64,000 nucleotides of DNA from Cognatitamlana onchidii (GTDB lineage: Bacteria > Bacteroidota > Bacteroidia > Flavobacteriales > Flavobacteriaceae): the NCBI RefSeq assembly GCF_004804355.1, contig NZ_SRWZ01000006.1, forward strand, positions 203,383 through 267,382. Direction: 5' to 3'. Under the pieces are notes generated by a model. The model did not search any database and was not told where the DNA came from. It saw nothing but the letters and a program-made list of their open reading frames with translations. Within the stretch, counting starts at the first letter, position 1. The number at the start of each line of letters is the position of its first letter. Shown piece after piece: positions 49,600 to 64,000 of this stretch. The translations under genes were made by a program, and so were the position numbers.

Positions 49600-49711
49600 C
49601 TGGGCATTCCCTTTATTTTGAAGGCTGTTCAAAATAAAGGTCGCGCTTTTCGTTACTAGTTTTGGCTCAAAGCACAGCTCGCCAAAAGCTAACCACTACA
49701 ATCGCTAATGC
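49600..49711. repeat. Structured dispersed intergenic repeat, copy 2
   Basis: Starts with CTGGGCATTCC and contains two hairpins: CTTTATTTTGAA / TTCAAAATAAAG (49611-49639, perfect) and AGTTTTGGC / GCCAAAAGCT (49658-49690). The second half recurs, inverted, at 29580-29626. CTGGGC..GGTCGCGCTTTTCG is reminiscent of interspersed repeats I know from Flavobacteriaceae intergenic DNA. It lies just upstream of the integrase. Confidence 0.55.
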
Positions 49712-49776
49712 AAAGGCGAACTCCAAATAATCTTTCATGTGTATAAATAATTTCTTACTTTTATATAAAAAACGGA

Positions 49777-50916: not shown

Positions 50917-51047
50917 GAATTATTCTCCTATGAACAAAATAAGTATATTTGATAGCGTGATATGGATACTAAATAAGCATAAAAAACCATCGTTATCACT
51001 CCAAATAGGGTTATTATGATTAATTTAATCATCCATATAAACAAGTT
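50917..51047 (+). other. attI-like region between integrase and first cassette
   Basis: The first cassette boundary is the GTT at 51045, in ATATAAACAAGTTGGC, which resembles the right end of the array sites (ATATACAAAAACGTTG). Upstream it lacks the matching left half that a cassette site would have, but holds the dyad TGATTA/TAATCA (51017-51031) and GTGATA..TATCAC (50957-51000). By position this is the primary attachment site. Confidence 0.6.
50944..50951 (+). promoter_or_regulatory. Candidate cassette promoter -7 element
   Basis: TATATTTG is an exact TAnnTTTG match between the integrase stop and the first cassette, reading into the array, in the place of an integron Pc promoter. No good -33 TTTG is seen at 19-21 bp, so support is weak. 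Confidence 0.3.
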
Positions 51048-51080
51048 GGCAAATATTATTAAAGACGTTCCCTAACAAAA

Positions 51081-51512
51081 ATGAATAAATCAATTAAAGA
51101 AAAATTAGAATGGTACTTTATTGGTCTAAGAAAAAATGCAATAAGCACTTTAATTGGTCTTTTAGGAATTTTAATATTCCTATATATTTTCTTTTTTCAA
51201 CCTGATGGTAGAGGTAACAAACTTGAAGAATTACAAGGAAGAACAACTTGTAATGTAATTTATTTTCAACCTAAAGAAAGTATGGCACAAACCTCTATCG
51301 GAAATCACATTTCAACTATAGGATACACTATTAAATACACTTATGAAGTAAACGGGATAACTTACTATACCACAGAATATTTAAAAGACAGCCAGTATAA
51401 TCAAAATACTATTTTGACTATTAAGAGAAATCTTAGAGACAAAACTAATAGAATTAAAATTAAATATTCATTTTACAATCCAGATCAATCAATGCTAGAT
51501 AGAGAAAATTAA
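51081..51512 (+). CDS. Cassette 1 gene A: single-pass membrane protein
   Basis: 143 residues. One membrane helix (AISTLIGLLGILIFLYIFFF, about 21-40) follows a basic N-terminus; the rest is an outside beta-rich domain with GYTIKYTYEVNGITYYTTEY, a DUF3592-like pattern (a pair of beta strands around TY.VNG..Y). No function is known. It starts 36 bp after the cassette boundary and shares cassette 1 (51045-52177) with the next gene, 47 bp downstream with no recombination site between. Confidence 0.65.
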   Translation: MNKSIKEKLEWYFIGLRKNAISTLIGLLGILIFLYIFFFQPDGRGNKLEELQGRTTCNVIYFQPKESMAQTSIGNHISTIGYTIKYTYEVNGITYYTTEYLKDSQYNQNTILTIKRNLRDKTNRIKIKYSFYNPDQSMLDREN

Positions 51513-51559
51513 TATAGAAGAGAAAAAAATAAATTTTATCAAACTTCAACTATGAGGAA

Positions 51560-52018
51560 ATGAAAGAAAACAAATACATTGAAAAATTTAAACATAAATC
51601 TAAGCGTGATTTAGAATATAAAGTGAATAATCCCTCACTATTTGACAGTGAGTCTATTTTAGCAGCTAAACACATACTTGAAAATTATTCTGAATTTCAA
51701 AAACAACAATCAGAAACTAAAAATAATTGTCAAGAAATTGAAAATAAATCTTTTTCAACCAACAGTTTTTTAATTCCTTTTATAATATTCTCTTGTCTAA
51801 TCGCAGTTGTTATATTAATTAATGGATTGAACAATATTTACTTATTAATGAGTATAACAAGTGGTTATTTCTCCTATTTATTGTTTAAACACTACAAATC
51901 TTGGAAGTCTGAATATCTAAATTCAAATAATACACATCTAACAGTCAAGTATTTGACTTTACCAATCATTCTAATGCTCGTATGTGTAATATTCTTTTTT
52001 AAATCATTTTCTGAATAA
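51560..52018 (+). CDS. Cassette 1 gene B: membrane protein
   Basis: 152 residues: a soluble helical N-terminus of 70 residues (KFKHKSKRDLEYKVNNPSLF...ESILAAKHILEN), then three hydrophobic helices (FLIPFIIFSCLIAVVILI, IYLLMSITSGYFSYLLF and LTLPIILMLVCVIFFF). The start fits GAGGAA 8 bases upstream. I do not recognise a family. Second gene of a two-gene cassette. Confidence 0.65.
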   Translation: MKENKYIEKFKHKSKRDLEYKVNNPSLFDSESILAAKHILENYSEFQKQQSETKNNCQEIENKSFSTNSFLIPFIIFSCLIAVVILINGLNNIYLLMSITSGYFSYLLFKHYKSWKSEYLNSNNTHLTVKYLTLPIILMLVCVIFFFKSFSE

Positions 52019-52051
52019 TACTGAAAACTTAGTCAATAACAATAAATAACA

Positions 52052-52186
52052 TTAGCCAACAACGTATATAAAAAATTGCTGTACTCCTACTCTGTTGAAA
52101 AATTCGTTACTTTTATAAAAAATAAAATAGCATGAAAAATTACGTTTCAAAAAACGCAACTTTTCATATACAAAAACGTTGTGTGT
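52052..52186 (+). repeat. attC-like site 1
   Basis: Left end TTAGCCAAC mirrors the start of its own cassette (GTTGGCAAATATT at 51045; 11 of 13 match, A opposite C at position 11). Outer arms AACGTATATAAAAAATTGC and GCAACTTTTCATATACA can pair. The centre is more diverged than in later sites and lacks the GAAAATCC stem. Right end GTTGTGTGT (52178) begins cassette 2. Confidence 0.75.
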
Positions 52187-52249
52187 CATTTAAGCACAGG
52201 AACTTCAAATTGAAAACATAGAAATAAACAGAAGAGGAAATTGAAAAGA

Positions 52250-52708
52250 ATGATTAAAAAATATGACGGAAAAAAGTATACTCTGAAAGAGTACCTTCCA
52301 GTTATATTTCTGTTTATATTTCTTATTGGATTTGGAATTTATACCGTTGTAAAAAAAGGAGAGTTTGAATATGTATTTTTAAGTACAACTTTTAACGAAA
52401 GTGTTGTTGATATTTTTGAAGAAAAAGGAAATACTTATTTATTACTGACAAATAAAAAAAATAGATATAGAATCGAAAATAGTCGGAATTATGATTATAA
52501 ACCTGCATTTTTATATGATTTTATTAAAGAAAATGACCGAGTAATTAAAAACGAATGTTCTGATACTCTTTACATAGAACGAAATTCAAAAAAATATCAT
52601 TTTCTTATTGGAAGTGCATTGTACAATCGCAAAGGAAAATCAAAAGCACTTATCGAAAAGTCATTAAACGAAAGAGAAATAATGAATAAAAGAAATGATT
52701 GCAATTGA
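52250..52708 (+). CDS. Cassette 2: small single-helix membrane protein
   Basis: 152 residues from ATG 52250 (MIKKYDGKKYTL); a TTG at 52241 would add three residues and cannot be excluded. One membrane helix (YLPVIFLFIFLIGFGIYTVV, about 16-35), then a beta-rich outer domain with FNESVVDIFEEKGNTYLLL and repeated Tyr/Lys. Similar in form to the cassette 3 product (short cytoplasmic tail, one helix, ~110-residue domain with a KENDRVIKN / KVGDTLIKT turn), so the two may be distant relatives. Function unknown. Confidence 0.65.
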   Translation: MIKKYDGKKYTLKEYLPVIFLFIFLIGFGIYTVVKKGEFEYVFLSTTFNESVVDIFEEKGNTYLLLTNKKNRYRIENSRNYDYKPAFLYDFIKENDRVIKNECSDTLYIERNSKKYHFLIGSALYNRKGKSKALIEKSLNEREIMNKRNDCN

Positions 52709-52730
52709 AAATAAAACTGAATAAAAACGA

Positions 52731-52933
52731 ACACACAACATTGGCTATAATTAATACGGGTTTAGTCGTTTAAGATATAAAGCTGGAATATCAGCTAACA
52801 ACGCCAAATCTTTTGGATTTGGCTTTTGATATAAAAAAATAAAAACAAACAAAAAGCTTCGGCTAATCGCTTAAACGGAAACAAAAGCATACTTTTATTC
52901 CCGTACTAATCATAGCCGAGAACGTTGTAAAAC
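52731..52933 (+). repeat. attC-like site 2 (longest, about 200 bp)
   Basis: Left end ACACACAAC mirrors its own cassette start GTTGTGTGT (52178). The arms TTGGCTATAATTAATACGGG and CCCGTACTAATCATAGCC pair over almost their whole length. An inner stem GCCAAATC/GATTTGGC (52810-52829) replaces the usual GAAAATCC stem. Right end GTTGTAAAAC (52924) begins cassette 3. Extra length lies between the arms. Confidence 0.82.
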
Positions 52934-52936
52934 ATT

Positions 52937-53362
52937 ATGAAAAGACTCTGGAAAAAATATAAAATATTGATTTTCCCTATTTTAATTCTAATTGGGTTTA
53001 TAAATACAGTTTGGTTTTTTGATAAACACTCTATTTCGGAGGAGGACTTTTTCAATAATGCAGTAAAAACTTCTTATAACAAGTCATATGATGGAATTAT
53101 AACCCAAAAGTTTTATAAAAAAGAAGGAGGTAGAGATATTATTGTACTTGAAAAAAATGGAATTACAACTCAAATGGATTTTGTTTATCAAAACCCAATT
53201 TTATATCAATACCTCAAAGTTGGTGACACTCTAATAAAAACTAAAAATAGCAACTCTATAGTCGTCAAACGTGCAAAATTAGATACCACAATAAATCTAA
53301 CATTTGAGAACTTGAAAGGTGTAAAAAAATATTCTATAAACAATCCATATTTAAAAAACTAA
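52937..53362 (+). CDS. Cassette 3: small single-helix membrane protein
   Basis: 141 residues starting MKRLWKKYKILIFPILILIG; the ATG lies only 13 bases after the cassette boundary, so there is no room for a promoter inside the cassette. One helix (about 9-28), then an outer domain with YDGIITQKFYKKEGGRDIIV and LKVGDTLIKTKNSNSIVVKR. It resembles the cassette 2 product in layout and in this turn. No function is known. Confidence 0.65.
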   Translation: MKRLWKKYKILIFPILILIGFINTVWFFDKHSISEEDFFNNAVKTSYNKSYDGIITQKFYKKEGGRDIIVLEKNGITTQMDFVYQNPILYQYLKVGDTLIKTKNSNSIVVKRAKLDTTINLTFENLKGVKKYSINNPYLKN

Positions 53363-53367
53363 AAAAC

Positions 53368-53508
53368 GTTTTACAACATAGTATAAAAATAATGCGTAAG
53401 TTTATTCCTAAAGCAAAAGTTAGTGCTTGTTTGCTTGCATCTGATTTTCCTTCGGAAAATCCTCGCATTCAAACTACGCACTATTCTTATACGTAACCGT
53501 TAGCAAAC
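53368..53508 (+). repeat. attC-like site 3
   Basis: Left end GTTTTACAAC is the exact reverse complement of its own cassette start GTTGTAAAAC (52924). Arms ATAGTATAAAAATAATGCG and CGCACTATTCTTATAC pair. Central stem GATTTTCC-TTC-GGAAAATC. Right end GTTAGCAAAC (53499) begins cassette 4. Confidence 0.85.
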
Positions 53509-53516
53509 ATTAAGGA

Positions 53517-54176
53517 GTGAAATACAAACTTGAAAATATAGATTTAGGAGATTTAGAAGATGTTGTTATGAAACTTGAAGATTCTTTCGAAGTTCAATTA
53601 ACTGGAATTGACATTCTAAAGATTAATAATTTTGGAGAACTAACTGATATTATTAAAGAAAAAATTGTATTTGAAAGTGAAGAAAATTGTACTTCTCAAC
53701 AGGCATTTTATAAACTTAGAAGTGTAATTGAAAAAGAATTTGGAATTGAAAACTTGAATCCAAAATCTAAATTATCTGAAATTTTCCCTAAAAAAGAACG
53801 TTTATTGAAAATTAAGCTAATAGAGGAAAAATTAGATTTTAAGCTAAAAATTACTCAACCTAAAAGTATTTTCCTGAAATTTTTTACTTATTTACTTTTA
53901 GTTTCTCTTTTGTTCTTTATAATTAACTACAAAATAGCATCTATTTTATTCATAACATCAATCATTGGAATTTGGACTTTATACAAGTTTGGAAAAGAAT
54001 TGAATATAAATACATTTGGAGAATTAGCTGAAAAAATGAAAAGAGAGAATTATTCAAAAGTTAGGAGGAATAAGAACTCAATAAATAAAAAAGAAATTGA
54101 AAAAATAATAATTGATACATTCTCAATAGAACTTGACTTGGATAAAACTAAACTTACGAGAAACGCATTATTATGA
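53517..54176 (+). CDS. Cassette 4: membrane protein with an acyl-carrier-like N-terminal region
   Basis: 219 residues from the GTG at 53517, directly after TAAGGA. Residues 1-50 (LENIDLGDLEDVVMKLEDSF .. NFGELTDIIKEKI) have the helix and loop pattern of a carrier-protein fold but no Asp-Ser-Leu attachment site. A similar segment recurs near the C-terminus (NTFGELAEKMKREN). Two membrane helices lie at about 120-155. No function known. The gene fills cassette 4 (53499-54309) with its start 18 bases from the boundary. Confidence 0.62.
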   Translation: MKYKLENIDLGDLEDVVMKLEDSFEVQLTGIDILKINNFGELTDIIKEKIVFESEENCTSQQAFYKLRSVIEKEFGIENLNPKSKLSEIFPKKERLLKIKLIEEKLDFKLKITQPKSIFLKFFTYLLLVSLLFFIINYKIASILFITSIIGIWTLYKFGKELNINTFGELAEKMKRENYSKVRRNKNSINKKEIEKIIIDTFSIELDLDKTKLTRNALL

Positions 54177-54179
54177 AAC

Positions 54180-54319
54180 GTTTGCTAACAACGTATAAAT
54201 TTTATTGCTAGCTAATTGCTTACTTTCGAAAGTCCTCACAGACTTTCTATTCAGTAATAATTTGCTTACTTTTAGCTAAACGAAACCGCAACAAAGTTTA
54301 TACAGAGACGTTGTGGTTA
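54180..54319 (+). repeat. attC-like site 4
   Basis: Left end GTTTGCTAAC is the exact reverse complement of its own cassette start GTTAGCAAAC (53499). Central stem GAAAGTC/GACTTTC (54225-54248) is a variant of the common stem with paired changes. Right end GTTGTGGTTA (54310) begins cassette 5. Confidence 0.85.
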
Positions 54320-54342
54320 ATGTCGAAAAACCAAGAAACTAA

Positions 54343-55137
54343 ATGAATAAAACAATATTTGAGATTACCAAAATGGATTGTCCTTCAGAGGAAAATCTAA
54401 TCCGAATGAAATTGGACGGAATTTCAAGTATTGCGAATTTGGACTTTGACATTCCCAACCGAAAACTGACCGTTTTTCACAGCGGAGAAACTAACCAAAT
54501 TGAAAAATCAGTTATCGAACTGAATTTAGGCGGAAAGAAAATCTCGACTGAACAAACCGACCAAACGGAATTTAATGAAAATGCAAACCAAAAAAAGCTA
54601 CTATGGTCTGTACTTGCCATAAATTTTGCGTTTTTCATAATTGAAATGACAACAGGAATAATCTCAAAATCAATGGGATTGGTTGCGGACAGTTTAGATA
54701 TGCTTGCGGACAGTTTCGTTTACGGAATTAGCTTGTTTGCGGTTGGCGGAACAGAAGTAAAGAAAAAACGGATTGCCAAACTTGCTGGATATTTTCAAAT
54801 AACACTTGCAATTATCGGATTTGTAGAAGTTTTAAGAAGATTTTTCGGAGATGAGAAACTACCCAACTTTTCGACAATGATTATCGTTTCGATTTTCGCC
54901 CTTATTGCAAACGGAATTTGTCTTTACATTTTACAAAAGTCAAAAAGTAAGGAAGAGGCTCATATGAAAGCAAGTATGATTTTCACTTCAAACGATGTGA
55001 TTATCAATTTAGGAGTAATTACAGCTGGACTTTTGGTAAATTGGTTGAGTTCAAGCAAACCTGATTTGATTATCGGAACAATCGTTTTTGTTTTGGTAAT
55101 TCAAGGAGCATTTAGAATATTAAAATTGAGTAAATAA
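54343..55137 (+). CDS. Cassette 5: HMA-domain cation diffusion facilitator family transporter
   Basis: 264 residues. An N-terminal HMA-like domain (IFEITKMDCPSEENLIRMKL, with a single Cys and Glu where CxxC is usual; residues 1-70) precedes a CDF-type membrane domain with about six helices. GLVADSLDMLADSFVYG carries the D-x-x-x-D pair of CDF metal sites (near 118-125), and a second site is suggested by FTSNDVIINLGV. It would move a divalent cation across the inner membrane; the ion is not shown. Its codon and base usage is visibly richer in GC than cassettes 1-4, a sign of separate origin. Confidence 0.8.
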   Translation: MNKTIFEITKMDCPSEENLIRMKLDGISSIANLDFDIPNRKLTVFHSGETNQIEKSVIELNLGGKKISTEQTDQTEFNENANQKKLLWSVLAINFAFFIIEMTTGIISKSMGLVADSLDMLADSFVYGISLFAVGGTEVKKKRIAKLAGYFQITLAIIGFVEVLRRFFGDEKLPNFSTMIIVSIFALIANGICLYILQKSKSKEEAHMKASMIFTSNDVIINLGVITAGLLVNWLSSSKPDLIIGTIVFVLVIQGAFRILKLSK

Positions 55138-55149
55138 ATTAAAAAACAC

Positions 55150-55285
55150 TAACCACAACAATGGCTATAAGTAATTGCTTGTTCTCGCCTACTTCTGAAA
55201 ATCCTAGCGGATTTTCAGTTTGGTGTGTACTTGCTAAGTTAATCGCTAAACCACGCAACTACTCATAGCCGAGACCGTTGTGCGT
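55150..55285 (+). repeat. attC-like site 5 (class A)
   Basis: Left end TAACCACAAC is the exact reverse complement of its own cassette start GTTGTGGTTA (54310). Arms GGCTATAAGTAATTGC and CAACTACTCATAGCC pair. Central stem CTGAAAATCC-TAGC-GGATTTTCAG is perfect. Right end GTTGTGCGT (55277). Nearly identical to sites 8, 9 and 13. Confidence 0.88.
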
Positions 55286-55314
55286 CATTTGAGAAAAACA
55301 GTTAATAATACAAA

Positions 55315-55728
55315 TTGAGTTGGATAAAGAAAATATTTGGAACAAAGAAAAACAAGGAAGTTGTTGAGCAATCAGTCGCTAAAATCACCGACGCGGAATT
55401 GGAATTTCTAATCAACCGAGAATTTCCTGAAAATGCGGATTTAGTAAAAAGCAAACTGAATGAAATTCAGAGTGACTCTCATTATGGAAAAAACAGAATT
55501 TCCGCAGCAGTCCTAAAAATCGCAAATTCGGATTTGACAAAAATTGACTTTTTGATAACAAAAGCTAATGAGGATTTTCGAGATATAATTTCAGAAGCAG
55601 AATATCCAAGAGTCTCAAAACACGGATTTGGAGAACGGAATGAAAAGGAATTAAAAACTGATAATTTAAATGATTGGACTGAATATACAAATTGGAAAAA
55701 TAAAAAACGAACGCACAACACCGTATAA
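55315..55728 (+). CDS. Cassette 6: hypothetical soluble protein
   Basis: 137 residues from a TTG at 55315. The start SWIKKIFGTKKNKE resembles the amphipathic, basic beginnings of small cassette-type proteins and no ATG is near. The rest is helical (ITDAELEFLINREFPENADL, YGKNRISAAVLKIANSDLTK) with acidic and basic faces. No family recognised. The last codons and the stop (55726-55728) lie inside the recombination site, so insertion of other cassettes would leave the C-terminus unchanged only up to the site. Confidence 0.55.
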   Translation: MSWIKKIFGTKKNKEVVEQSVAKITDAELEFLINREFPENADLVKSKLNEIQSDSHYGKNRISAAVLKIANSDLTKIDFLITKANEDFRDIISEAEYPRVSKHGFGERNEKELKTDNLNDWTEYTNWKNKKRTHNTV

Positions 55729-55848
55729 AAAAAATTGCTAGTTTTAGCTAAACCAATGTTAGTTGCTCGTTTCCTAGCTTCTGATTTTCCTTCGGAAAAT
55801 CCTCGCACACAAACACGCAACTTTCCTTATACAAACACGTTGCCTTTA
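55711..55848 (+). repeat. attC-like site 6 (class B)
   Basis: Left end ACGCACAAC is the exact reverse complement of its own cassette start GTTGTGCGT (55277). Arms CCGTATAAAAAAAATTGC and GCAACTTTCCTTATAC pair. Central stem GATTTTCC-TTC-GGAAAATC. Right end GTTGCCTTTA (55839). Similar to site 10 across most of its length. Confidence 0.87.
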
Positions 55849-55879
55849 ATTGCGGAAAACAAGAAGCCAAAATCTGAAA

Positions 55880-56488
55880 ATGATTAATAAACTCCAACTT
55901 ATATCGATATTATTAATATTTCTATCATTTTTTAATTGTGCTCCTAAGCTCACTTATATAGAAATAAAAGAAAAAGTAAATAACAAGTATATTGCCTTAA
56001 ACGAAAAAGACTTCGAATATGAATATAATAATCTTCCCGAAAAGTATATTATGGAATATGGAGAAGAAGGATTAATAAAAAAACTCCAAGAGACTTATGA
56101 ATTGAGAAAAAAAGACAAATTTCCAATTACATATGATGACATCGGAGACTTTAAAATTCAACCTATAAACAAATGCAACTCAACTTACTTTTATAAAGTA
56201 AAATATATAGTTGACAAAGTGCAGATGACTCCATATTTGGACTCTCTTGCATTAGAACGGAATTATAAAAATTATGGGAAAGAAAATGTGAGTTTTAATT
56301 CTATTTTAAAGATATTAGAAGTTAGACTATATAAAGAAGATATTTTAATATTCGACAAAGATAAAGTATGGAAATTATTAGCTTTTAAGGATTTTGATAG
56401 TCAGCTTTATGATAGACTATTTAGAAAAGGATTTTCTGAATGTGTAAAAACAAAAATTGATAACGCGGAATACCTTCCGTATTGGTGA
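55880..56488 (+). CDS. Cassette 7: putative lipoprotein
   Basis: 202 residues from the ATG at 55880 (MINKLQLISILLIFLSFFNC). The earlier in-frame TTG at 55850 would bury the signal peptide and is rejected. The hydrophobic stretch ends in SFFNC, a lipobox, with Cys20 as the lipidated residue. The mature part is rich in Lys, Glu and Tyr (NEKDFEYEYNNLPEKYIMEY). It is presumably anchored to a membrane. No family is recognised. Confidence 0.65.
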   Translation: MINKLQLISILLIFLSFFNCAPKLTYIEIKEKVNNKYIALNEKDFEYEYNNLPEKYIMEYGEEGLIKKLQETYELRKKDKFPITYDDIGDFKIQPINKCNSTYFYKVKYIVDKVQMTPYLDSLALERNYKNYGKENVSFNSILKILEVRLYKEDILIFDKDKVWKLLAFKDFDSQLYDRLFRKGFSECVKTKIDNAEYLPYW

Positions 56489-56501
56489 AAAATAAAACAA
56501 C

Positions 56502-56640
56502 TAAAGGCAACAACGTGTAAAAATAATTGCTTGGTTCTAGCCTATTCGGAAAATCCTTCGGATTTTCCTCTGGTTCGTTCCACTTTTGCTAAATTAGTGG
56601 CTTAACCACGCAACTATCCTTACACAAACACGTTGTGGTG
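56502..56640 (+). repeat. attC-like site 7 (class C)
   Basis: Left end TAAAGGCAAC is the exact reverse complement of its own cassette start GTTGCCTTTA (55839). Arms GTGTAAAAATAATTGC and CAACTATCCTTACAC pair. Central stem GGAAAATCC-TTC-GGATTTTCC. Right end GTTGTGGTG (56632). Nearly identical to the intact part of site 14. Confidence 0.87.
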
Positions 56641-56664
56641 CATTTAACAAACAGACGAACTAAT

Positions 56665-57609
56665 ATGAAAAATTGTTACAAATGTGATTTTGAAATACAA
56701 GAAAGTTTTAAGTTTTGTCCAAATTGTGGTTCAAATCAAACTGAATTAGTTTGTCCTAGTTGTAAGTACAAAAATGAGCCAAATTCTAAATTTTGTCAAG
56801 AATGTGGAACAAATTTAAAAGGAACTAAAAAGCCTTCTAAACCTAAAATAGAAATAATTGAGCAACCAATACCTGAATTTGGAATTACTGTAGAGTTTAA
56901 GTATTCTACTTCGCAAACATTTGACTTTGCAGTTGAAGAAGCGATGAAATTCAGCACTTTTCAACAAATTGGTGAAGATAAAAAAGCAATTTATCGTGTT
57001 AATGTCACTGAAGACCAAATAGAAACTCTTGAGCCATTATTGGAGAATCTTAAAGGTTGGAGAAACCGAAAAGTTTATCATAATGGAGAAAAAGTACTTT
57101 GGGATTCAATGTTCAGCCATCAATGGTGCTATAAACAAAGAAAAGCAAGTTATAAACCAGAGCTTTATTGTTTCGGTTATGAAAACAACTATGATTATAA
57201 TTTATGGGGTTGCATTCAAACAAGACTTGCTTTTAGAGAACATTCAGAACTATTTACTTATGGTAAGTGGTTAAATACTAAAGGTGACTGGGAATTTGAC
57301 AAAGAGAGAATAAGTCACACATTAGAAAAGAATCTTTTTCAATACCGCTTTTGTCCTGCTATGAATTTGGAACTAGTTAAAGATGTTTTGTTAGCGTTCC
57401 CAGACAAAGTAAACCCTTCAAAAGATGATGACTGGAAATTCATAAAAAATTATGGTTCACAAGACGGTTTGAAAATTACTGAAAAAAGCAGTTTTGGCTA
57501 TGTTGAAGAATACTATGTTAATGGAGCTGCACCAGCAAGTATGAAGAAGTTCTTAACTCAAATCAGCAAAAAAATGACTAAAAAGTTACCTAGTGGAATT
57601 ATAGAATAA
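56665..57609 (+). CDS. Cassette 8 gene A: double zinc-ribbon protein
   Basis: 314 residues from the ATG at 56665 ([12 protein letters not shown]). Two zinc ribbons in tandem: CYKC...CPNC and CPSC...CQEC (within residues 1-50). A linker rich in Lys and Pro follows, then a ~220-residue domain with [20 protein letters not shown] and [20 protein letters not shown]. That domain is not recognised. It shares cassette 8 (56632-59023) with the DUF2130 gene 10 bp downstream, so the two probably work together. Confidence 0.68.
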
Positions 57610-57619
57610 TAGACAGAAT

Positions 57620-58891
57620 ATGAACGAAATTATTTGTCCAAATTGTAAAAAAGCATTCAAAGTTGATGAAGCAGGTTTTGCAGATATACTTAAACAAGTT
57701 CGAGACCACCAATTTGAAGAGGAAATTAATTCAAGGTTAGCAATTGCAGAAAAGCAAAAGGATGATGCAATAAAACTAGCTGAAGCGAATGTAAAAAACT
57801 CATTTCAAGCTGAACTTGCAGAAAAAGAGAAAGAGATTTCTCTATTAAAAGCTAATAGTAAAAGTCAGTTAATTGAGAAATTAGCAGAAAAAGATGCTGA
57901 ATTAGCAAAAGTCAATTCTAAAATTCAAAATGCTGAGACTGAAAAAAAATTAGCAATATCTGAAGCTGTCAAGCAAATTGAAAAAGAAAGAGATAATTTG
58001 GCTAATGACCTTAGAATTAAGGACACTGAGAAGGAGCTCCTTGAAAAATCTATTAAAGAACAGTTCAATAATAAACTTATTGTAAAAGACGAAACCATAA
58101 AAATGAAAGATGAGGAAATTACTCGTCTGAAAGACTTCAAACAAAAGCTATCAACTAAAATGGTAGGCGAAAGTTTAGAACAACATTGTGAATCAGAATT
58201 TAACAGGATTAGAACAACAGCATTTCCAAATGCATTTTTTGGGAAAGATAATGACGCTAGTTCAGGAACAAAAGGTGATTTTATCTTTAGAGAATCTGAT
58301 GCTTCAGGTAATGAAATAATTTCTATAATGTTCGAAATGAAGAACGAGAATGAAACAACCTCTACCAAAAAGAAAAATGAAGACTTTTTTGCTAAATTAG
58401 ATAAAGACAGAATAACTAAAAATTGCGAATATGCAGTTCTTGTATCGTTACTAGAATCAGATAGTGAATTTTATAATACTGGTATTGTTGATGTTTCATA
58501 TCACTTTCCTAAAATGTATGTAGTTAGACCTCAATTCTTTTTACCAATCATTTCATTTTTACGAAATGCAGCTTTAAACTCAATGAAGTATAAAGCGGAG
58601 TTAGCTCAAATTAGAAACCAAAACATTGACATAACCAATTTTGAGGATAAGATTAACGCCTTCAAAACAGGTTTTGCAAAGAATTATGAATTGGCCAATA
58701 GAAAATTTAACACCGCTATTGCAGAAATTGACAAAACAATAAGTCACCTACAAAAAACAAAAGATGCTTTATTGTCATCGGATAGAAATTTAAGATTAGC
58801 TAATGACAAAGCAGAAGGATTAACTATAAAAAAATTAACACACGGAAACCCAACAATGAAAGCTAAATTTGATGATTTAAATAACGAATAA
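57620..58891 (+). CDS. Cassette 8 gene B: DUF2130 domain-containing protein
   Basis: 423 residues. An N-terminal zinc-finger-like [17 protein letters not shown], a long coiled coil (about 25-175, many Lys/Glu heptads) and the DUF2130 domain with [28 protein letters not shown] and [20 protein letters not shown]. The GDF..EMK pattern recalls the PD-(D/E)xK nuclease core, and a nuclease role has been suggested for the family (inference). It is the largest cassette gene and pairs with the zinc-ribbon gene. Confidence 0.85.
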
Positions 58892-58897
58892 AAACGA

Positions 58898-59032
58898 CAC
58901 CACAACAATGGCTATAAGTAATTGCTTGCTCTCGCCTACTTCTGAAAATCCTTGCGGATTTTCAGTTTGGTGTGTACTTGCAAAGTTAAGTGCTAACCCA
59001 CGCAACTACTCATAGCCGAGACCGTTGTGCGT
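58898..59032 (+). repeat. attC-like site 8 (class A)
   Basis: Left end CACCACAAC is the exact reverse complement of its own cassette start GTTGTGGTG (56632). Arms GGCTATAAGTAATTGC and CAACTACTCATAGCC pair; central stem CTGAAAATCC-TTGC-GGATTTTCAG. Right end GTTGTGCGT (59024). Nearly identical to sites 5, 9 and 13. Confidence 0.88.
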
Positions 59033-59047
59033 CATTTAAGAAAAATC

Positions 59048-59686
59048 GTGAAATACAAGAAAATAAGAGGATTAAAACGAAAGGTTGCTAATATTCAGAA
59101 TTGGATAAATGAATATTTGGACTTAAATGTTGAGCATTTGAATGAACATAAATACGAATACACCAAAGTTTATGTTGACCCTTGGGACAATCTGACTTTG
59201 ACTGACAGTCTGATTCCTGAACCGAAAGGAAAAGCCAAAAAGGATATCCTAAACGGACTTGAAAAAATCTATGATAGTTGGAAAATTGAATTAGAGAAAT
59301 TAAACAAACCGTATTATTTAAAAATATGGTTGTATGAACCAAGGATTTCTAAATCTCAAGTCGTTTGTGCAATTGACGAAAAGATTGAGTATTACGAAAA
59401 CATATTTGAAAAAGCCGATTTTAAGCCAAATGACTCGTCATTTACTAATCAATTGAGTTCTGAATTTAAATGGCAACCTAATATTGACGAAGAACCTTAT
59501 TGGGAAAGTGATTTGCTTTGGCCAATTGACCAGTACGAAAGAATAGAAGACAGTTATTCGGACAGAAGACTTTTGAACAAACTGAAAAAAGGGAATTTTA
59601 AGAATAAAGAAATTGACAGTCCAAATGGAAATAAAGACACGATTTATTTCTTACCAAAAGGGAAAATTTGGGTTGGAGAAAAATAA
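59048..59686 (+). CDS. Cassette 9: hypothetical protein
   Basis: 212 residues from the GTG at 59048 (KYKKIRGLKRKVANIQNWI). A longer frame would start inside the recombination site and is rejected. Predicted soluble, rich in Trp/Tyr (VYVDPWDNLTL, YLKIWLYEP, EEPYWESDLLWP) and helical at the N-terminus. No family recognised. LKRKVANIQNW and the repeated short acidic/aromatic patches suggest a small regulatory or immunity-type protein, but nothing in the sequence proves it. Confidence 0.6.
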   Translation: MKYKKIRGLKRKVANIQNWINEYLDLNVEHLNEHKYEYTKVYVDPWDNLTLTDSLIPEPKGKAKKDILNGLEKIYDSWKIELEKLNKPYYLKIWLYEPRISKSQVVCAIDEKIEYYENIFEKADFKPNDSSFTNQLSSEFKWQPNIDEEPYWESDLLWPIDQYERIEDSYSDRRLLNKLKKGNFKNKEIDSPNGNKDTIYFLPKGKIWVGEK

Positions 59687-59693
59687 AAAACGA

Positions 59694-59829
59694 ACGCACA
59701 ACAATGGCTATAAGTAATTGCTTGTTCTCGCTTACTTCTGAAAATCCTATCGGATTTTCAGCTTGGTGTGTACTTGCAAAGTTAAGTGCTAAATCACGCA
59801 ACTACTCATAGCCGAAGCCGTTGGCGCTA
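59694..59829 (+). repeat. attC-like site 9 (class A)
   Basis: Left end ACGCACAAC is the exact reverse complement of its own cassette start GTTGTGCGT (59024). Same arms as sites 5, 8 and 13; central stem CTGAAAATCC-TATC-GGATTTTCAG. Right end GTTGGCGCTA (59820). Confidence 0.88.
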
Positions 59830-59845
59830 ATTTGAGAAAACGACA

Positions 59846-60508
59846 TTGACAAAGAATTTCAGCATATTGATTTTTAAACAAACCAGGGTAGTGATAAGCT
59901 TATTTACCTTTGTAATTTTGTTTATACCCGTTTTGTTGCTTCCAAGCCAAATTGAAAATTCAATTTTACAATTAGTGGTTACTGCTCTCGGAATAATTGG
60001 GCTATTTGGAATACTCTTTTATTTCTCTTATGGACGACTAAATGTGACTTTTGAAAATGATACACTCCATTTTGAATGGCAAAAAAAACTGCTTTTTGAC
60101 TATGCGAAAATCCCAGACATTGAACTTAATGAAATAAAATGCCTTGTGATTGACCAAGGACAAATCTTAAGAAAAATAATTACGGACAAGGTTGAAATAA
60201 CACTCGGAAATAATCGCCCAAATAATATTTTAAAAAGCGATTCACAGTCCTTTATAAATTTCCTTTCAAAAGAAATTCAGGACAAAGAAATTATTGATAG
60301 TTGGGATATTTGGGTTAAAAAAGGAATTTTAAAATGGGCATTAAGAATTAACACAATGATTCTTATTGTGGTAGTTGGAATTTTAGGTTTTTTTGCTGCA
60401 ACTAAAGGAATTGAAAAGATTCCCCCTGCAAGTTTCTTTATGCTGATTTTCCTTTTACCACAAATGATTTTATATCAAAAACAAATGAAAAATAAAATAA
60501 AAAACTAG
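59846..60508 (+). CDS. Cassette 10: membrane protein
   Basis: 220 residues from a TTG at 59846. Four membrane helices in two hairpins: VVISLFTFVILFIPVLLLP, LQLVVTALGIIGLFGILFYF, then IILV-type TMILIVVVGILGFFAA and FFMLIFLLPQMILY near the C-terminus. The loop between carries a PH-like pattern (NVTFENDTLHFEWQKKLLFD). No family recognised. The last codon and the TAG lie at the left end of the next site. Confidence 0.6.
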   Translation: MTKNFSILIFKQTRVVISLFTFVILFIPVLLLPSQIENSILQLVVTALGIIGLFGILFYFSYGRLNVTFENDTLHFEWQKKLLFDYAKIPDIELNEIKCLVIDQGQILRKIITDKVEITLGNNRPNNILKSDSQSFINFLSKEIQDKEIIDSWDIWVKKGILKWALRINTMILIVVVGILGFFAATKGIEKIPPASFFMLIFLLPQMILYQKQMKNKIKN

Positions 60509-60644
60509 CGCCAACACAGTATATAAAAAATTGCTATTTTGTGCTTAACCAATGTGAGTTGCTTTGTTTGCTAGCTTCTGATTTTCCTTCGGAAAATCCT
60601 CGCACACAAACACGCAACTTTCCATATACATAAACGTTGTAAGT
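60506..60644 (+). repeat. attC-like site 10 (class B)
   Basis: Left end TAGCGCCAAC is the exact reverse complement of its own cassette start GTTGGCGCTA (59820). Arms AGTATATAAAAAATTGC and GCAACTTTCCATATAC pair; central stem GATTTTCC-TTC-GGAAAATC. Right end GTTGTAAGT (60636). The first three bases are the stop codon of the cassette gene. Confidence 0.87.
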
Positions 60645-60654
60645 CATTTGAAAA

Positions 60655-61239
60655 ATGAACAAAACATTCAAATTCATATCATTAAGTTTAATTGGAATAC
60701 TTATCCTTACTTCTTTCGGACTTCAAAACAAACCGAAAATACTTTTCCATAAAATAAGGTTTACCGCATCTTCTGTGAAATTAGAAAAATGGAATATTAA
60801 GGATACAATAGGAACTGAATTTGTAATGGAAACCATAGATGATTACGGAAGAACTAAAGAATTAAGGTTCTATAATTGGAAACATCAATTGGATTGGGCT
60901 GGCTCGGGATTTTATGGTGGACCAATAATAAAATACGATTACGAGAAAAATAAAATAATCGAAACGTTTTTTAGTTCTGACACAGAAATTGCAAATGACT
61001 TTAGCACATCAGAAGTTCCTTTTCAATTTATTTATTATCTCAATTCTCAAAATAATATTGAGCGGACTGAAATGAAATACAAAATGGATTTTAAGTGGAC
61101 TAAAGAAAGTTTAGAAAAAACCATTAAACACTTGGAATTTTATAAACAATACGCATCCGAAGAAGCTGATTTAGACCAAGTTTTTGGTTATTCTTATGCG
61201 TTTGCTAAAATGAATGGAATTGAACCTAAAACAAAATAA
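60655..61239 (+). CDS. Cassette 11: secreted or periplasmic protein
   Basis: 194 residues with a signal peptide (FKFISLSLIGILILTSFG). The mature part is beta-rich (LFHKIRFTASSVKLEKWNIK, DDYGRTKELRFYNWKHQLDW) and ends in a helix (LEKTIKHLEFYKQYASEEAD). The ATG lies 19 bases after the cassette boundary. No family recognised. Confidence 0.62.
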   Translation: MNKTFKFISLSLIGILILTSFGLQNKPKILFHKIRFTASSVKLEKWNIKDTIGTEFVMETIDDYGRTKELRFYNWKHQLDWAGSGFYGGPIIKYDYEKNKIIETFFSSDTEIANDFSTSEVPFQFIYYLNSQNNIERTEMKYKMDFKWTKESLEKTIKHLEFYKQYASEEADLDQVFGYSYAFAKMNGIEPKTK

Positions 61240-61245
61240 AAACGC

Positions 61246-61382
61246 CTTACAACACCGGCTATAGTTCATTGCTTCTGACTTTCCTATCGGAAAGTCCTCG
61301 CAAATTTGCTATCTCCGGTTTACAGCGGAAAATCCTTGCGGATTTTCACGCAACGAAACCATAGCCAAACACGTTGTGTGTA
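61246..61382 (+). repeat. attC-like site 11
   Basis: Left end CTTACAAC is the exact reverse complement of GTTGTAAG at its own cassette start (60636). Arms CCGGCTATAG and CATAGCC pair. It holds two inner stems: GACTTTCC-TATC-GGAAAGTC (61269-61288) and GGAAAATCC-TTGC-GGATTTTC. Right end GTTGTGTGTA (61373). Confidence 0.83.
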
Positions 61383-61412
61383 AGCTGAAGAAAAATCCGT
61401 GAAACAAGAAAA

Positions 61413-62003
61413 ATGGGAATATTTGATTTTATAAAAGGTAATAAAAAAGCTAAATCGGAAAAGACCGAAAAGCCTTCACCTGAACAAAAGTTATTCTCGG
61501 AAAAAGCTATGGAAATTGTAATTCCGACTTTTGAAAAGTTCGGATTTATAAAACACCGAATTGAAATCGGAAAACATTCTTCTATAATAATTTACCGAAA
61601 GGAAAACCAATACTTAAAAATATCGAGTACAACTTATCCGACAGATTACCCATATTGTTACAATATAATTTTCGGAGAAGGAGACAGCGAAGACGTTTTA
61701 GAATATGACTGGAATTCAATTGCACTCTGGAGGTTTAAGAAAATAGTTGAGCCGAAATCAAAAGCATCGGAATATGAGTTTCCGACTAAAAAAGGAGTCG
61801 AATCGAGTTTGGAAAATGCTAATAATGAATTATTGAAATACGGACTGACTTTTTTAAACGGAGATTTGAATTTATTCCACGAAATTAGAAAAGAACAAAA
61901 CCAAAATAGAGAACCATATAAAATATATTCGCCTGACAAAAATGGAAAATATCAAACGTCCTACGAACCAAAAAGCGTGGAACAAAAGAAAAAGTATAGT
62001 TGA
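61413..62003 (+). CDS. Cassette 12: hypothetical soluble protein
   Basis: 196 residues. The start MGIFDFIKGNKKAKSEK is an amphipathic helix seen on many small Bacteroidota proteins. Then a mixed domain with IVIPTFEKFGFIKHRIEI, SSIIIYRKENQYLKISST and DSEDVLEYDWNSIALW. Helical C-terminus with charged tail. Its form is like that of immunity-type proteins, but no family is recognised. Confidence 0.62.
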   Translation: MGIFDFIKGNKKAKSEKTEKPSPEQKLFSEKAMEIVIPTFEKFGFIKHRIEIGKHSSIIIYRKENQYLKISSTTYPTDYPYCYNIIFGEGDSEDVLEYDWNSIALWRFKKIVEPKSKASEYEFPTKKGVESSLENANNELLKYGLTFLNGDLNLFHEIRKEQNQNREPYKIYSPDKNGKYQTSYEPKSVEQKKKYS

Positions 62004-62016
62004 ATAAATAAAAGCC

Positions 62017-62154
62017 TACACACAACAACGTGTATAATTAATGGCTAGTTCAAGCCTACTTACGAAAATCCTCGCGGATTTTCTATTCGGTTTTTATTTG
62101 CTTAATTAAGTGCGTAGAACACGCCACTAATCATACACAAAACCGTTGTGTGTA
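62017..62154 (+). repeat. attC-like site 12
   Basis: Left end TACACACAAC is the exact reverse complement of its own cassette start GTTGTGTGTA (61373). Arms AACGTGTATAATTAATGGC and GCCACTAATCATACAC pair; central stem GAAAATCC-TCGC-GGATTTTC. Right end GTTGTGTGTA (62145). Confidence 0.86.
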
Positions 62155-62181
62155 ATGCGAGCGAACATCTTTGGAATAAAA

Positions 62182-62213
62182 TTTGTTTACTAAAAAGGAA
62201 ACTTTTATCTTTG
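62182..62213 (+). promoter_or_regulatory. Promoter of the toxin-antitoxin cassette
   Basis: TTTG at 62182-62185, 20 bp, then TATCTTTG at 62206-62213: both Bacteroidota promoter elements at the canonical distance, 18 bp upstream of the toxin ATG. It lies inside cassette 13, so the pair can be expressed wherever the cassette is. Confidence 0.65.
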
Positions 62214-62231
62214 TAACAAACAAATATCTGA

Positions 62232-62576
62232 ATGACGGAAAAATTTAAAGTTGAATTTCTTAAGGAGGCTTTTGACTTCTTGGATGAACTTGATGAAAAG
62301 GCTCGAAAGAAAATACTTTTCAATATTGACAGGGCAAAAGTAAAAACAGACAATACGCTCTTTAAAAAACTGACTTCGGATATTTGGGAATTTCGGACTT
62401 TGTTCAACAAAAAACAATACCGACTTTTTGCATTTTGGGATAAAACCGACAATAAAGTGACTATTGTAATAGCAACACACGGAATTATTAAAAAAACGCA
62501 GAAAACACCGAAAAAAGAAATTGACAAAGCGACCGAGTTAATGAACAAATATTTTGAATCGAAAAACAAGAAGTAA
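62232..62576 (+). CDS. Cassette 13 toxin: RelE/HigB-like (Gp49 family)
   Basis: 114 residues. KFKVEFLKEAFDFLDELDEK, LTSDIWEFRTLFNKKQYRLF and FWDKTDNKVTIVIATHGIIKKTQKTP are the Gp49/HigB mRNA-interferase pattern, with the basic and aromatic residues of the active face (Arg, Tyr, His, Lys). Such toxins cut mRNA on the ribosome. It precedes its antitoxin, the HigBA order; the stop and the next start overlap by one base (TAATG). Confidence 0.9.
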   Translation: MTEKFKVEFLKEAFDFLDELDEKARKKILFNIDRAKVKTDNTLFKKLTSDIWEFRTLFNKKQYRLFAFWDKTDNKVTIVIATHGIIKKTQKTPKKEIDKATELMNKYFESKNKK

Positions 62577-62893
62577 TGAAAACATACACATTTGACGAAG
62601 TAAAAGACAAATACCTTGGAAAAAAAGGTACAGAGGAAAGAGATGCCTATGAAAATGAATTGCGACTTGATTTGATCGGAGAAGCAATCAAAAAGGCTCG
62701 TAAGGAAAGAAAACTGACGCAATCGCAACTTGGAGAATTAATCGGAGTGAAAAAAGCGCAGATTTCCAAAATCGAGAATAATTTGACCGATGCAAGATTT
62801 GAGACAATTTTAAAAGTGTTTAGAGCTTTAAACGCAAAGATTAATTTTAACGTGGAATTGCTGAACCAAAAAATGGACTTGGCAACTGAATAA
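62576..62893 (+). CDS. Cassette 13 antitoxin: XRE-family HigA-like
   Basis: 105 residues. N-terminal toxin-binding region (TFDEVKDKYLGKKGTEERDA) and an XRE helix-turn-helix (IKKARKERKLTQSQLGELIG, then KKAQISKIENNLTDARF, about 38-70). It should neutralise the toxin and repress the cassette promoter by binding DNA near 62182-62213. Start overlaps the toxin stop by one base. Confidence 0.92.
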   Translation: MKTYTFDEVKDKYLGKKGTEERDAYENELRLDLIGEAIKKARKERKLTQSQLGELIGVKKAQISKIENNLTDARFETILKVFRALNAKINFNVELLNQKMDLATE

Positions 62894-62899
62894 AAGCAC

Positions 62900-63036
62900 T
62901 ACACACAACAATGGCTATAAGTAATTGCTTGTTCTCGCCTACTTCTGAAAATCCTTGCGGATTTTCAATTTGGTGTATACTTGCAAAGTTAAGTGCTAAC
63001 CCACGCAACTACTCATAGCCGGAACCGTTGTAGCAC
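62900..63036 (+). repeat. attC-like site 13 (class A)
   Basis: Left end TACACACAAC is the exact reverse complement of its own cassette start GTTGTGTGTA (62145). Arms and central stem as in sites 5, 8 and 9 (one change: CTGAAAATCC-TTGC-GGATTTTCAA). Right end GTTGTAGCAC (63027). Confidence 0.88.
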
Positions 63037-63055
63037 ATTTACCAAAACAAACTAA

Positions 63056-63517
63056 ATGATTGAATTAATACTTTCGACTTTAGCAGAATTTGGCCTAATT
63101 CGGGAAGATTATAAACATCGAAAACGGATTAGTAAAAAAGAAAAAGAAGACGGAATTAATAGACCGATTCAAAAATATTTTCTACAACCGAGTTCAATAA
63201 TGGTTCTTTCAGTTTTGATTATTGGAAGTTTAGGCGCATTTCTGTTTTTTAGCTACCAAAGGACTTCGATTTTTCCAGAAAAAACCAAAAAAGAAATAAC
63301 GGAAATGAGTGACAGAATGGAAAAGTGGAATGAAAAATTTGGAAAATATCCAACTGACCTAAACGAGTTGATTGGTAATAGCCCAATAAGACAGGAATGG
63401 ATAAAAGATTCATGGAATCGACCTTATCAATACTCTGTTAAAGAAAATGGATTTTTAATTGTGTCAGCTGGTTCTGATGGACAATTTGGGACTAAAGATG
63501 ACATTGAATCGGAATAA
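63056..63517 (+). CDS. Cassette 14 gene A: membrane protein with type II secretion GspG-like C-terminus
   Basis: 153 residues. A basic cytoplasmic region (DYKHRKRISKKEKED), one helix (SIMVLSVLIIGSLGAFLFF, about 48-66), then a domain ending in RQEWIKDSWNRPYQYSVKEN and SAGSDGQFGTKDDIES. The last part matches the calcium-binding C-terminal motif of major pseudopilins (KDPWG.PYQY..GF...SAGSDG..GT.DDI). The N-terminal prepilin peptidase site is absent, so it is not a normal pseudopilin. It overlaps the next gene by 20 bp. Confidence 0.72.
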   Translation: MIELILSTLAEFGLIREDYKHRKRISKKEKEDGINRPIQKYFLQPSSIMVLSVLIIGSLGAFLFFSYQRTSIFPEKTKKEITEMSDRMEKWNEKFGKYPTDLNELIGNSPIRQEWIKDSWNRPYQYSVKENGFLIVSAGSDGQFGTKDDIESE

Positions 63518-63767
63518 AAGAAAATTTAAAATTATAAGACTTTATTTAATTAGTTTAGTCTGCATTGCCTGCTTCCTTTTGTTAGAGAACTCTAACATAA
63601 TTTCTGAACTTGTTCAAATATCGGAAAAAGGACGTTATGGTGGATTTCCAACATTTTTTTTAACAGGATTATTTAAATACGGATTATTAGTAATTGGAAT
63701 AAGTATCATTATAATTATGAGTTTTCTGTTAATCAGAGAAAGAACAAAAAAACAATTGAATAAATAA
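63498..63767 (+). CDS. Cassette 14 gene B: small two-helix membrane protein
   Basis: 89 residues from the ATG at 63498 (MTLNRNKRKFKIIRL), overlapping the gene before by 20 bp in another frame. Two helices (LYLISLVCIACFLLLEN and YGLLVIGISIIIIMSFLLI) with basic ends. No family recognised. The overlap implies coupled translation and a joint role with gene A of this cassette. Confidence 0.58.
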   Translation: MTLNRNKRKFKIIRLYLISLVCIACFLLLENSNIISELVQISEKGRYGGFPTFFLTGLFKYGLLVIGISIIIIMSFLLIRERTKKQLNK

Positions 63768-63771
63768 AAAC

Positions 63772-63879
63772 GTGCTACAACACCATGTAAAAATAATTGC
63801 TTGGTTCTTGCCTACTCGGAAAATCCTACGGATTTTCCTCTGGTTCGTTCCACTTTTGCTAAATTAGTAGCTTAACCAC
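63772..63879 (+). repeat. attC-like site 14, truncated (class C)
   Basis: Left end GTGCTACAAC is the exact reverse complement of its own cassette start GTTGTAGCAC (63027). It follows site 7 closely (stem GGAAAATCC-TAC-GGATTTTCC) until CTTAACCAC at 63879, where similarity stops. The right arm (expected to resemble GCAACTATCCTTACAC..GTT) is missing. Confidence 0.83.
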
Positions 63880-64000
63880 TGTCGACTTCCCCTAAATAGA
63901 ACCGTTAGTTTTTCCAAAATTATTCATTTTTTCGTTTTAAAAGTAGTTTGATTTTTAATTTTATAACGGCTTTAAAATCAAACTATTTTTAAAATGCGCC
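63880..64000 (+). mobile_element. Probable insertion-sequence end or other foreign junction
   Basis: The sequence switches at 63880 to TGTCGACTTCCCCTAAATAG, which begins with TG and a C-run, like the ends of IS3-type elements. A dyad TAGTTTGATTTT / AAAATCAAACTA (63944-63985) follows. No transposase is visible before the window ends, so the element type is inference. Confidence 0.4.

Follow-up and report, generated by a model that had tools for sequence, protein, structure and literature searches.

A putative integron-like cassette array with directional G·T wobbles in Cognatitamlana onchidii

Organization of the Locus

The DNA analyzed here (the window) is a stretch of 64,000 nucleotides from Cognatitamlana onchidii (Flavobacteriaceae; contig NZ_SRWZ01000006.1, positions 203,383 to 267,382 of the forward strand). 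It carries a tyrosine recombinase gene (49777-50916, plus strand) followed by 14 cassettes, which lie on the same strand, head to tail, between 51045 and 63903. The cassettes share one plan: GTTR with a short variable box, then one or two open reading frames (ORFs), then a box ending in YAAC, and finally a body of 117-184 bp, palindromic in 13 of the 14. The attI-like core TATAAACAAGTT (51036-51047, plus strand) lies in front of the array and ends in the GTT of cassette 1. The window ends where the contig ends, about 100 bases past the last body (63782-63903). The right half of this body does not pair with its left half, so the end of the array looks truncated or decayed.

The bodies have the features of attC sites, namely AAC...GTT boxes, a hairpin, and an unpaired central spacer. 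Our hairpin detector, which weights top-strand and bottom-strand wobbles equally, found 12 of the 14 bodies, all with 3/6-base spacers and 16-base arms. The arms are ungapped in 13 of 14 bodies, one of which (body 14) is degenerate, and body 11 has one gap; this comparison of arms revealed no extrahelical bases in the window. Among Rfam families no match to the bodies reached the gathering score.

Pairing of the Cassette Ends

The initial annotation of this DNA had proposed that the two ends of each cassette are reverse complements of each other, and the comparison of own with shuffled partners bears this out. The uninterrupted own-end runs in cassettes 1-14 are 6, 9, 10, 10, 10, 9, 10, 9, 9, 10, 8, 10, 10, and 10 bases, on average 9.3 versus 4.8 with other partners, and their sum of 130 lies above the maximum of 110 reached in 100,000 permutations. 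At positions 5-10 the ends match at 5.6 of 6 positions with the own partner and at 2.0 of 6 with others. Extra mismatches occur in cassette 1 (position 7), whose own run is only 6, and in cassette 11 (position 9). In cassettes 1, 2, 6, 9, 12, and 13 at least one foreign end runs as long as the own one; boxes are shared by cassettes 6 and 9 and by cassettes 12 and 13, and cassette 2 resembles the latter two. Ends that neighbor each other across a body pair over 3-6 bases in 12 of 13 junctions and over 10 bases in one.

The relatives compared were a set of 20 loci and a set of 80 loci, both made up of recombinase neighborhoods, and an array of Persicobacter. The covariation is present in these related arrays too, a comparison which the initial annotation had also named: 96 consecutive pairs of the 20-locus set give an own sum of 707 (at most 437 in 10,000 shuffles), and 102 pairs of the 80-locus set give 790 (at most 449 in 5,000 shuffles).

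As a control we used the Vibrio array NZ_CP049914.1. Its 36 consecutive pairs have an own mean of 8.4 bases (up to 14) versus 4.8, with an own sum of 302 against at most 209 in 5,000 shuffles, and they show no fixed mismatch, position 11 being paired in 19 of 36. Most cassettes have 9-11 consecutive complementary bases between their own ends, as stated in the part of Bouvier et al. 2009 available to us (PMC2727003). Both results speak against the idea that canonical attC pairing covers only about 7 bases. Own-end pairing is thus an already known, general property of integron cassettes. In the window it supports the view that the two cassette ends behave as halves of one folding site, which would be complete once the own ends are joined. 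Since the pairing partner is the other end of the same cassette, and these ends are adjacent only in a circular form, the covariation points to a circular intermediate, as had been suggested.

Direction of the Mismatches

Position 11 carries a fixed mismatch, as first annotated: the base at the 5′ end is A in 14 of 14 cassettes and unpaired in all of them, with C opposite in ten, while the four cassettes singled out earlier do show the same A/C after a one-base offset. The accompanying statement that the next three bases pair again in the ten cassettes holds for positions 12 and 13 (10 of 10), and at position 14 for eight (cassettes 3 and 4 fail).

Where A faces C on the top strand, the bottom strand has T facing G, a wobble pair. 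How constant is this direction among relatives? Of 219 end pairs, 190 have a bottom-strand wobble at position 11 and none has a top-strand one; 26 have another mismatch there, and 3 a paired base. These pairs comprise all 14 of the window and, outside it, those with runs of at least 6 bases: 63 of 96 in the 20-locus set, 72 of 102 in the 80-locus set, and 70 of 90 in Persicobacter. In Persicobacter the top strand reads A/C in 40 pairs and C/A in 19, that is, the bases swap and the wobble stays on the bottom strand; these swaps may include the one-base-offset form and were therefore not counted as independent double changes.

The same direction prevails within the bodies. At arm positions 7 and 12 of sites with 3/6 spacers, bottom wobbles occur in 56 of 57 sites each in the 20-locus set, and in 63 and 66 of 70 sites, respectively, in the 80-locus set. 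The ratio of bottom to top wobbles over all arm positions is 26:1 in the 12 detected window sites, 290:14 in the 20-locus set, and 340:23 in the 80-locus set; the 39 Vibrio sites have 5 of each kind. Past the own-end run, the first mismatch is a bottom wobble in 12 of 14 window pairs and in 1 of 23 Vibrio pairs. The detector scored both kinds of wobble alike, and so the strand bias is not conditioned by it.

Predicted folding stability, calculated with DNA parameters, follows the wobbles. The bottom strand of the own-end sites is the more stable one in 14 of 14 window sites (mean difference -5.2 kcal/mol), in 70 of 72 sites of relatives (mean -5.2 kcal/mol), and in 9 of 10 own-pair sites of distant families (mean -3.5 kcal/mol), versus 7 of 25 in Vibrio (mean +0.9 kcal/mol). 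In Vibrio the arms are 24 bases long, and 37 of 39 sites show three gap positions in them. A strand asymmetry is hence present in both systems and placed in different features, in wobbles and stability here and in arm gaps there. The earlier suggestion that the fixed mismatch marks strand or polarity as extrahelical bases do is upheld with regard to polarity; the mark itself is a bottom-strand T·G wobble rather than an extrahelical base. It is this direction of the mismatches, and not the own-end pairing, that constitutes the new element.

Recombinase

The recombinase (379 amino acids; PF00589, 2.8e-39) consists of an N-terminal domain (residues about 1-80), a SAM-like domain, and a catalytic domain, in which we take R237, H326, R329, H352, and Y361 to be the catalytic residues, with roles assigned by homology. 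All NCBIfam matches are below cut-off (XerA_Arch 196 of 220 bits, TIGR02249 191 of 265). The best matches by sequence among solved structures are the archaeal Xer-like protein 4a8e and XerA 5hxy, and the match to IntI 2a3v is in two parts, interrupted at the place of the IntI insert. This insert, I2, is missing from all 9 array recombinases in the alignment and present in all 3 IntI. The C-terminal tail is NPFDxL-like, comparable to the SPL.. end of IntI, and differs in this from the XerC/XerD-like proteins of the same genome. In none of 149 family genomes did TIGR02249 exceed its cut-off, while the Vibrio record reached 522 bits in the same search; IntI-based surveys would therefore probably miss this system. 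Some relatives bear the NCBI name "site-specific tyrosine recombinase/integron integrase" (P0085, H44), so that a relationship to integron integrases has already been recognized, at least nominally.

The N-terminal domain has a small alpha/beta fold in the AlphaFold2 (AF2) model, with a predicted local distance difference test score (pLDDT) of 86; it gave no convincing Pfam match and no solved relative by sequence. The model of residues 1-82 resembles the MutS-like damage-recognition domain of XPB, and equally YciH/eIF1, so that the idea of a mismatch-reading domain which reads the wobbles is conjectural. The N-terminal domain and the arrays tend to occur together: at least two sites were found in 31 of 38 loci with frames of 345 amino acids or longer and in 3 of 15 with shorter frames (4 further loci were too short, and L148, L155, and L164 lay outside the scoring). 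A frame of 313 amino acids in locus L202, apparently without the N-terminal domain, is accompanied by 13 sites and seven own pairs with runs of at least 8. Given this locus, and because the longer frames were also picked by higher similarity, a need for the N-terminal domain does not follow from the count.

Putative Site of Entry and Cassette Mobility

The attI-like core motif, which was itself derived from these loci, precedes the first cassette in 60 of 73 of them, the window included, and occurs in 79 of 4000 random 300-nt windows. Behind the recombinase gene lies a candidate cassette promoter, TATATTTG (50944-50951, plus strand), which resembles what we take to be the Bacteroidota -7 element. 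The association is weak: 30 of 73 loci have TAnnTT[TG][GC] no more than 90 nt from the recombinase stop, and 542 of 4000 random 90-nt stretches contain it.

Comparison of 220 cassettes yielded 19 near-identical pairs. Thirteen are duplicates within one array (4 loci) with different neighbors on both sides; in these, the outermost 20 bases at either end agree fully, as does the bounding CGTT, and one base further out identity drops to 0.62 on the left and 0.46 on the right. Three other pairs come from one genome represented twice, and three, in L130, have similar left flanks. Two other genera have a counterpart of cassette 13, with identities of 81% over 749 bases in one and 77% over 707 in the other. 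This comparison indicates a mobile unit that would be bounded at CGTT.

Distribution in Other Genomes

Sites on the same strand number 171 in 355 kb downstream versus 11 in 707 kb upstream of 80 recombinases, and at least one was found in 46 of the 53 loci having 1.5 kb or more of downstream sequence. Of the 80 loci, 27 have less than 1.5 kb of sequence on the downstream side and 6 on the upstream side, as expected if assemblies break in repeats.

Recombinase relatives at an expectation value (E) of 1e-60 or better are present in 78 of 149 family genomes (one per genus); across the phylum, 75 of 296 genomes have one at 1e-55. Both counts include the own genome. Five of 20 loci from the phylum search (L147, L150, L152, L154, L158) contain one or more own-end pairs with runs of at least 6; 10 of 17 pairs reach that length, and all 10 have A at position 11. 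Cassette 13 with its body matches 118 of 299 family genomes in 105 of 236 genera, again with the own genome; among the matches listed, most are to the attC-like body alone.

One array beyond the family, spread over 100 kb, belongs to another order. Plasmid pPP2 of Persicobacter psychrovividus (L187, L188, L190) has 119 detected sites at 303.6-403.5 kb with no gap above 2.7 kb, co-oriented behind a recombinase whose match (50%, residues 216-379) lies at the edge of the record. Annotated products in this array are mostly hypothetical, several of them recurring, with transposase genes in between. Plasmid records with recombinase relatives at E of 1e-40 or better number 70, of which 50 are from Acinetobacter; a match spanning 80% or more of the query is seen in 8 of these records. 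Phage records yielded no match to the attC-like body; attC sites, one of them reportedly recombined by IntI1, have been described in a Polaribacter phage (PMC9892861, as far as the accessible part of that article goes).

Gene Content of the Cassettes

All cassettes lie on the plus strand, and most code for proteins without a Pfam match. These are cassette 1 (51045-52177; body 52061-52177; ORFs 51081-51512 and 51560-52018), cassette 2 (52178-52923; body 52740-52923; ORF 52241-52708), cassette 3 (52924-53498; body 53378-53498; ORF 52937-53362), cassette 4 (53499-54309; body 54190-54309; ORF 53517-54176), cassette 6 (55277-55838; body 55720-55838; ORF 55315-55728), cassette 7 (55839-56631; body 56512-56631; ORF 55880-56488), cassette 9 (59024-59819; body 59703-59819; ORF 59027-59686), cassette 10 (59820-60635; body 60516-60635; ORF 59846-60508), cassette 11 (60636-61372; body 61254-61372, missed by the detector; ORF 60655-61239), and cassette 12 (61373-62144; body 62027-62144; ORF 61413-62003).

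Cassette 5 (54310-55276; body 55160-55276) codes for a cation efflux protein (54343-55137; PF01545, 2.5e-17), and cassette 8 (56632-59023; body 58907-59023) for a zinc-ribbon protein (56665-57609; PF12773, 5.8e-10) and a DUF2130 protein (57620-58891; PF09903, 1.3e-89). A toxin-antitoxin-like pair occupies cassette 13 (62145-63026; body 62910-63026), with a Gp49-like protein (62232-62576; PF05973, 3.5e-18) and an HTH_3 protein (62576-62893; PF01381, 3.7e-14). Cassette 14 (63027-63903), whose body the detector likewise missed, has a T2SSG-like ORF (63056-63517; PF08334, 1.2e-07) and a second one at 63459-63767.

Just upstream of the recombinase gene a Flavo-1 RNA (Rfam RF01705) lies at 49635-49713 on the minus strand (47.7 bits; gathering score 42). 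An extra copy of the attC-like body, 91% identical, is present in the same contig about 170 kb from the array (C9:86587-86713, locus L170); a search with one body reported no other attC-like copy near it.

Interpretation

We consider it probable, from comparison of sequences, that the window holds an integron-like array whose cassettes leave as circles and re-insert via a folded bottom strand, where the A/C mismatches become G·T wobbles that likely set the strand. With an attI-like site, hairpin sites, and CGTT-bounded cassettes the array appears to work like an integron, yet it falls outside the present definition. The best reading is an integron variant that lacks I2 and may mark the strand by G·T wobbles, the fixed ones likely telling the enzyme which strand to use. 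In such a cycle the recombinase would act on the folded bottom strand and cut inside CGTT, and the cassette would be excised as a circle with its own ends joined. The bottom strand could be chosen either by its stability or by direct reading of the wobbles by a protein. We propose that the wobbles leave the bottom stem continuous and break the top stem at the same three places, which would keep the orientation of the cassette and hence the direction of its genes. Entry would take place at the attI-like site, the newest cassette coming first, near the promoter-like motif behind the recombinase gene.

Several observations weigh against this interpretation. About one third of the own-end runs of relatives are shorter than 6 bases (33 of 96 in the 20-locus set, 30 of 102 in the 80-locus set), partly through missed sites or a wrong CAACAAC register and partly unexplained. 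The two sets overlap in some genomes (L044 and L082 are identical), and the choice of sites by a hairpin detector conditions the absolute level of pairing. The first mismatch after runs of at least 8 is something other than a bottom wobble in 20 of 66 pairs of the 80-locus set and in 33 of 83 of Persicobacter. The arm bias is weaker in twenty loci of more distant families, which have 46 bottom versus 18 top wobbles in 34 sites; in several of these loci arm position 4 repeatedly carries a top wobble in addition to the bottom wobbles elsewhere, and in L202 the arm wobbles are 20 bottom versus 10 top. Seven of the 38 loci with frames large enough for the N-terminal domain have fewer than two sites, and a plasmid of Persicobacter sp. 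JZB09 (L191) with a recombinase relative covering 98% of the query has only one site in 20 kb downstream. Function is the weakest link, the evidence being comparative throughout.

The wobbles might be a passive trace, left where selection acts only for folding of the bottom strand and tolerates G·T pairs, so that they carry no signal. We regard this as possible but rather doubtful. At end positions 5-14 except 11, other mismatches outnumber bottom wobbles and, among wobbles, bottom exceeds top, as such tolerance predicts (bottom/top/other 4/0/8 in the window, 18/3/33 in the 20-locus set, 8/3/49 in the 80-locus set, 26/3/87 in Persicobacter), and arm position 8 has a bottom wobble in only some sites (16 of 57 and 19 of 70). 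However, end position 11 hardly varies, nor do arm positions 7 and 12, and the other arm positions, bar 8, are nearly always paired. The equal numbers of the two wobbles in Vibrio also speak against a passive origin, as its sites are likewise used on the bottom strand (PMC2727003, in the part available to us).

Other explanations account for less. It is improbable that we are dealing with a canonical IntI integron at the divergent edge of its kind: own-end pairing, the GTT boundary, central spacer, attI-like site, and hairpin bodies all match integrons, as do the NCBI names of some relatives, but the lack of I2, the absence of TIGR02249 matches over cut-off, arms without extrahelical bases, and a recombinase that is co-oriented rather than divergent do not. 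Long perfect palindromes are unstable, and the mismatches might merely break the palindrome so that the repeat survives replication; this we think very improbable, as it does not account for the one-sided direction of the mismatches (190 to 0 at position 11). We give hardly any credence to the reading of each cassette as a transposon-like element paired through its own terminal inverted repeats. The ends are indeed inverted repeats with 6-10 uninterrupted bases, but they differ between array neighbors and agree within a cassette, so their sequence is not what is recognized; moreover, the cassettes are joined head to tail, every junction carries a hairpin body, a scan of 18 cassette proteins of the window turned up no transposase family, and one end of the array has a recombinase and an attI-like site.

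If the integron-like reading is extended, it leads to a wider proposal, for which we hold belief and doubt in about equal measure. Bacteroidota may have a second, IntI-independent kind of integron, with a Xer-type enzyme lacking I2 that captures cassettes as folded single strands, and with strand choice written in three wobbles per site (end position 11, arm positions 7 and 12) instead of extrahelical bases. It might be the I2-free form whose lack turns the origin of integrons into a chicken-and-egg problem, and among the commonest gene-capture systems of Flavobacteriaceae.

Comparison with Known Systems

The superintegron of Vibrio sp. HDW18 (NZ_CP049914.1) resembles the window in its tandem cassettes, mostly in one direction, own-end pairing of more than 7 bases, hairpin attC sites, GTT boundary, and an integrase adjoining the array. 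In contrast, its IntI has the I2 insert and is divergent from the array, whereas the window recombinase lacks I2 and lies upstream and co-oriented, and the relatives have their sites 3′ of the recombinase like the window. Vibrio attC sites have the three gap positions, that is, extrahelical bases, and no wobble bias, while the window arms are ungapped and bottom-biased. In known integrons the I2 domain reads the extrahelical bases and so keeps the strand choice. XerC, XerD, and XerA share the catalytic core with the window recombinase, which adds an N-terminal domain and adjoins cassette arrays.

Within the same phylum, Salinibacter ruber M1 has a complete integron of the known kind (IntegronFinder 2.0, PMC9024848, in the part of the text accessible to us); the family genomes searched here have no IntI over the cut-off. 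Titles and abstract openings listed by searches of an open-access library contained no description of the present system; subscription papers and preprints lie outside that scope, and a prior description is possible.

Phage CTX, integrating via XerCD, likewise uses a Xer-type enzyme without I2, here on a folded single strand whose stem lacks extrahelical bases; it depends on the host Xer and has no integrase of its own (Escudero et al. 2016, PMC4792948, available to us in part), whereas in the window system the recombinase is a dedicated one and comes with arrays and an attI-like site. The same article calls the joint origin of I2 and extrahelical bases a chicken-and-egg paradox. A cassette system with neither would make this question testable.

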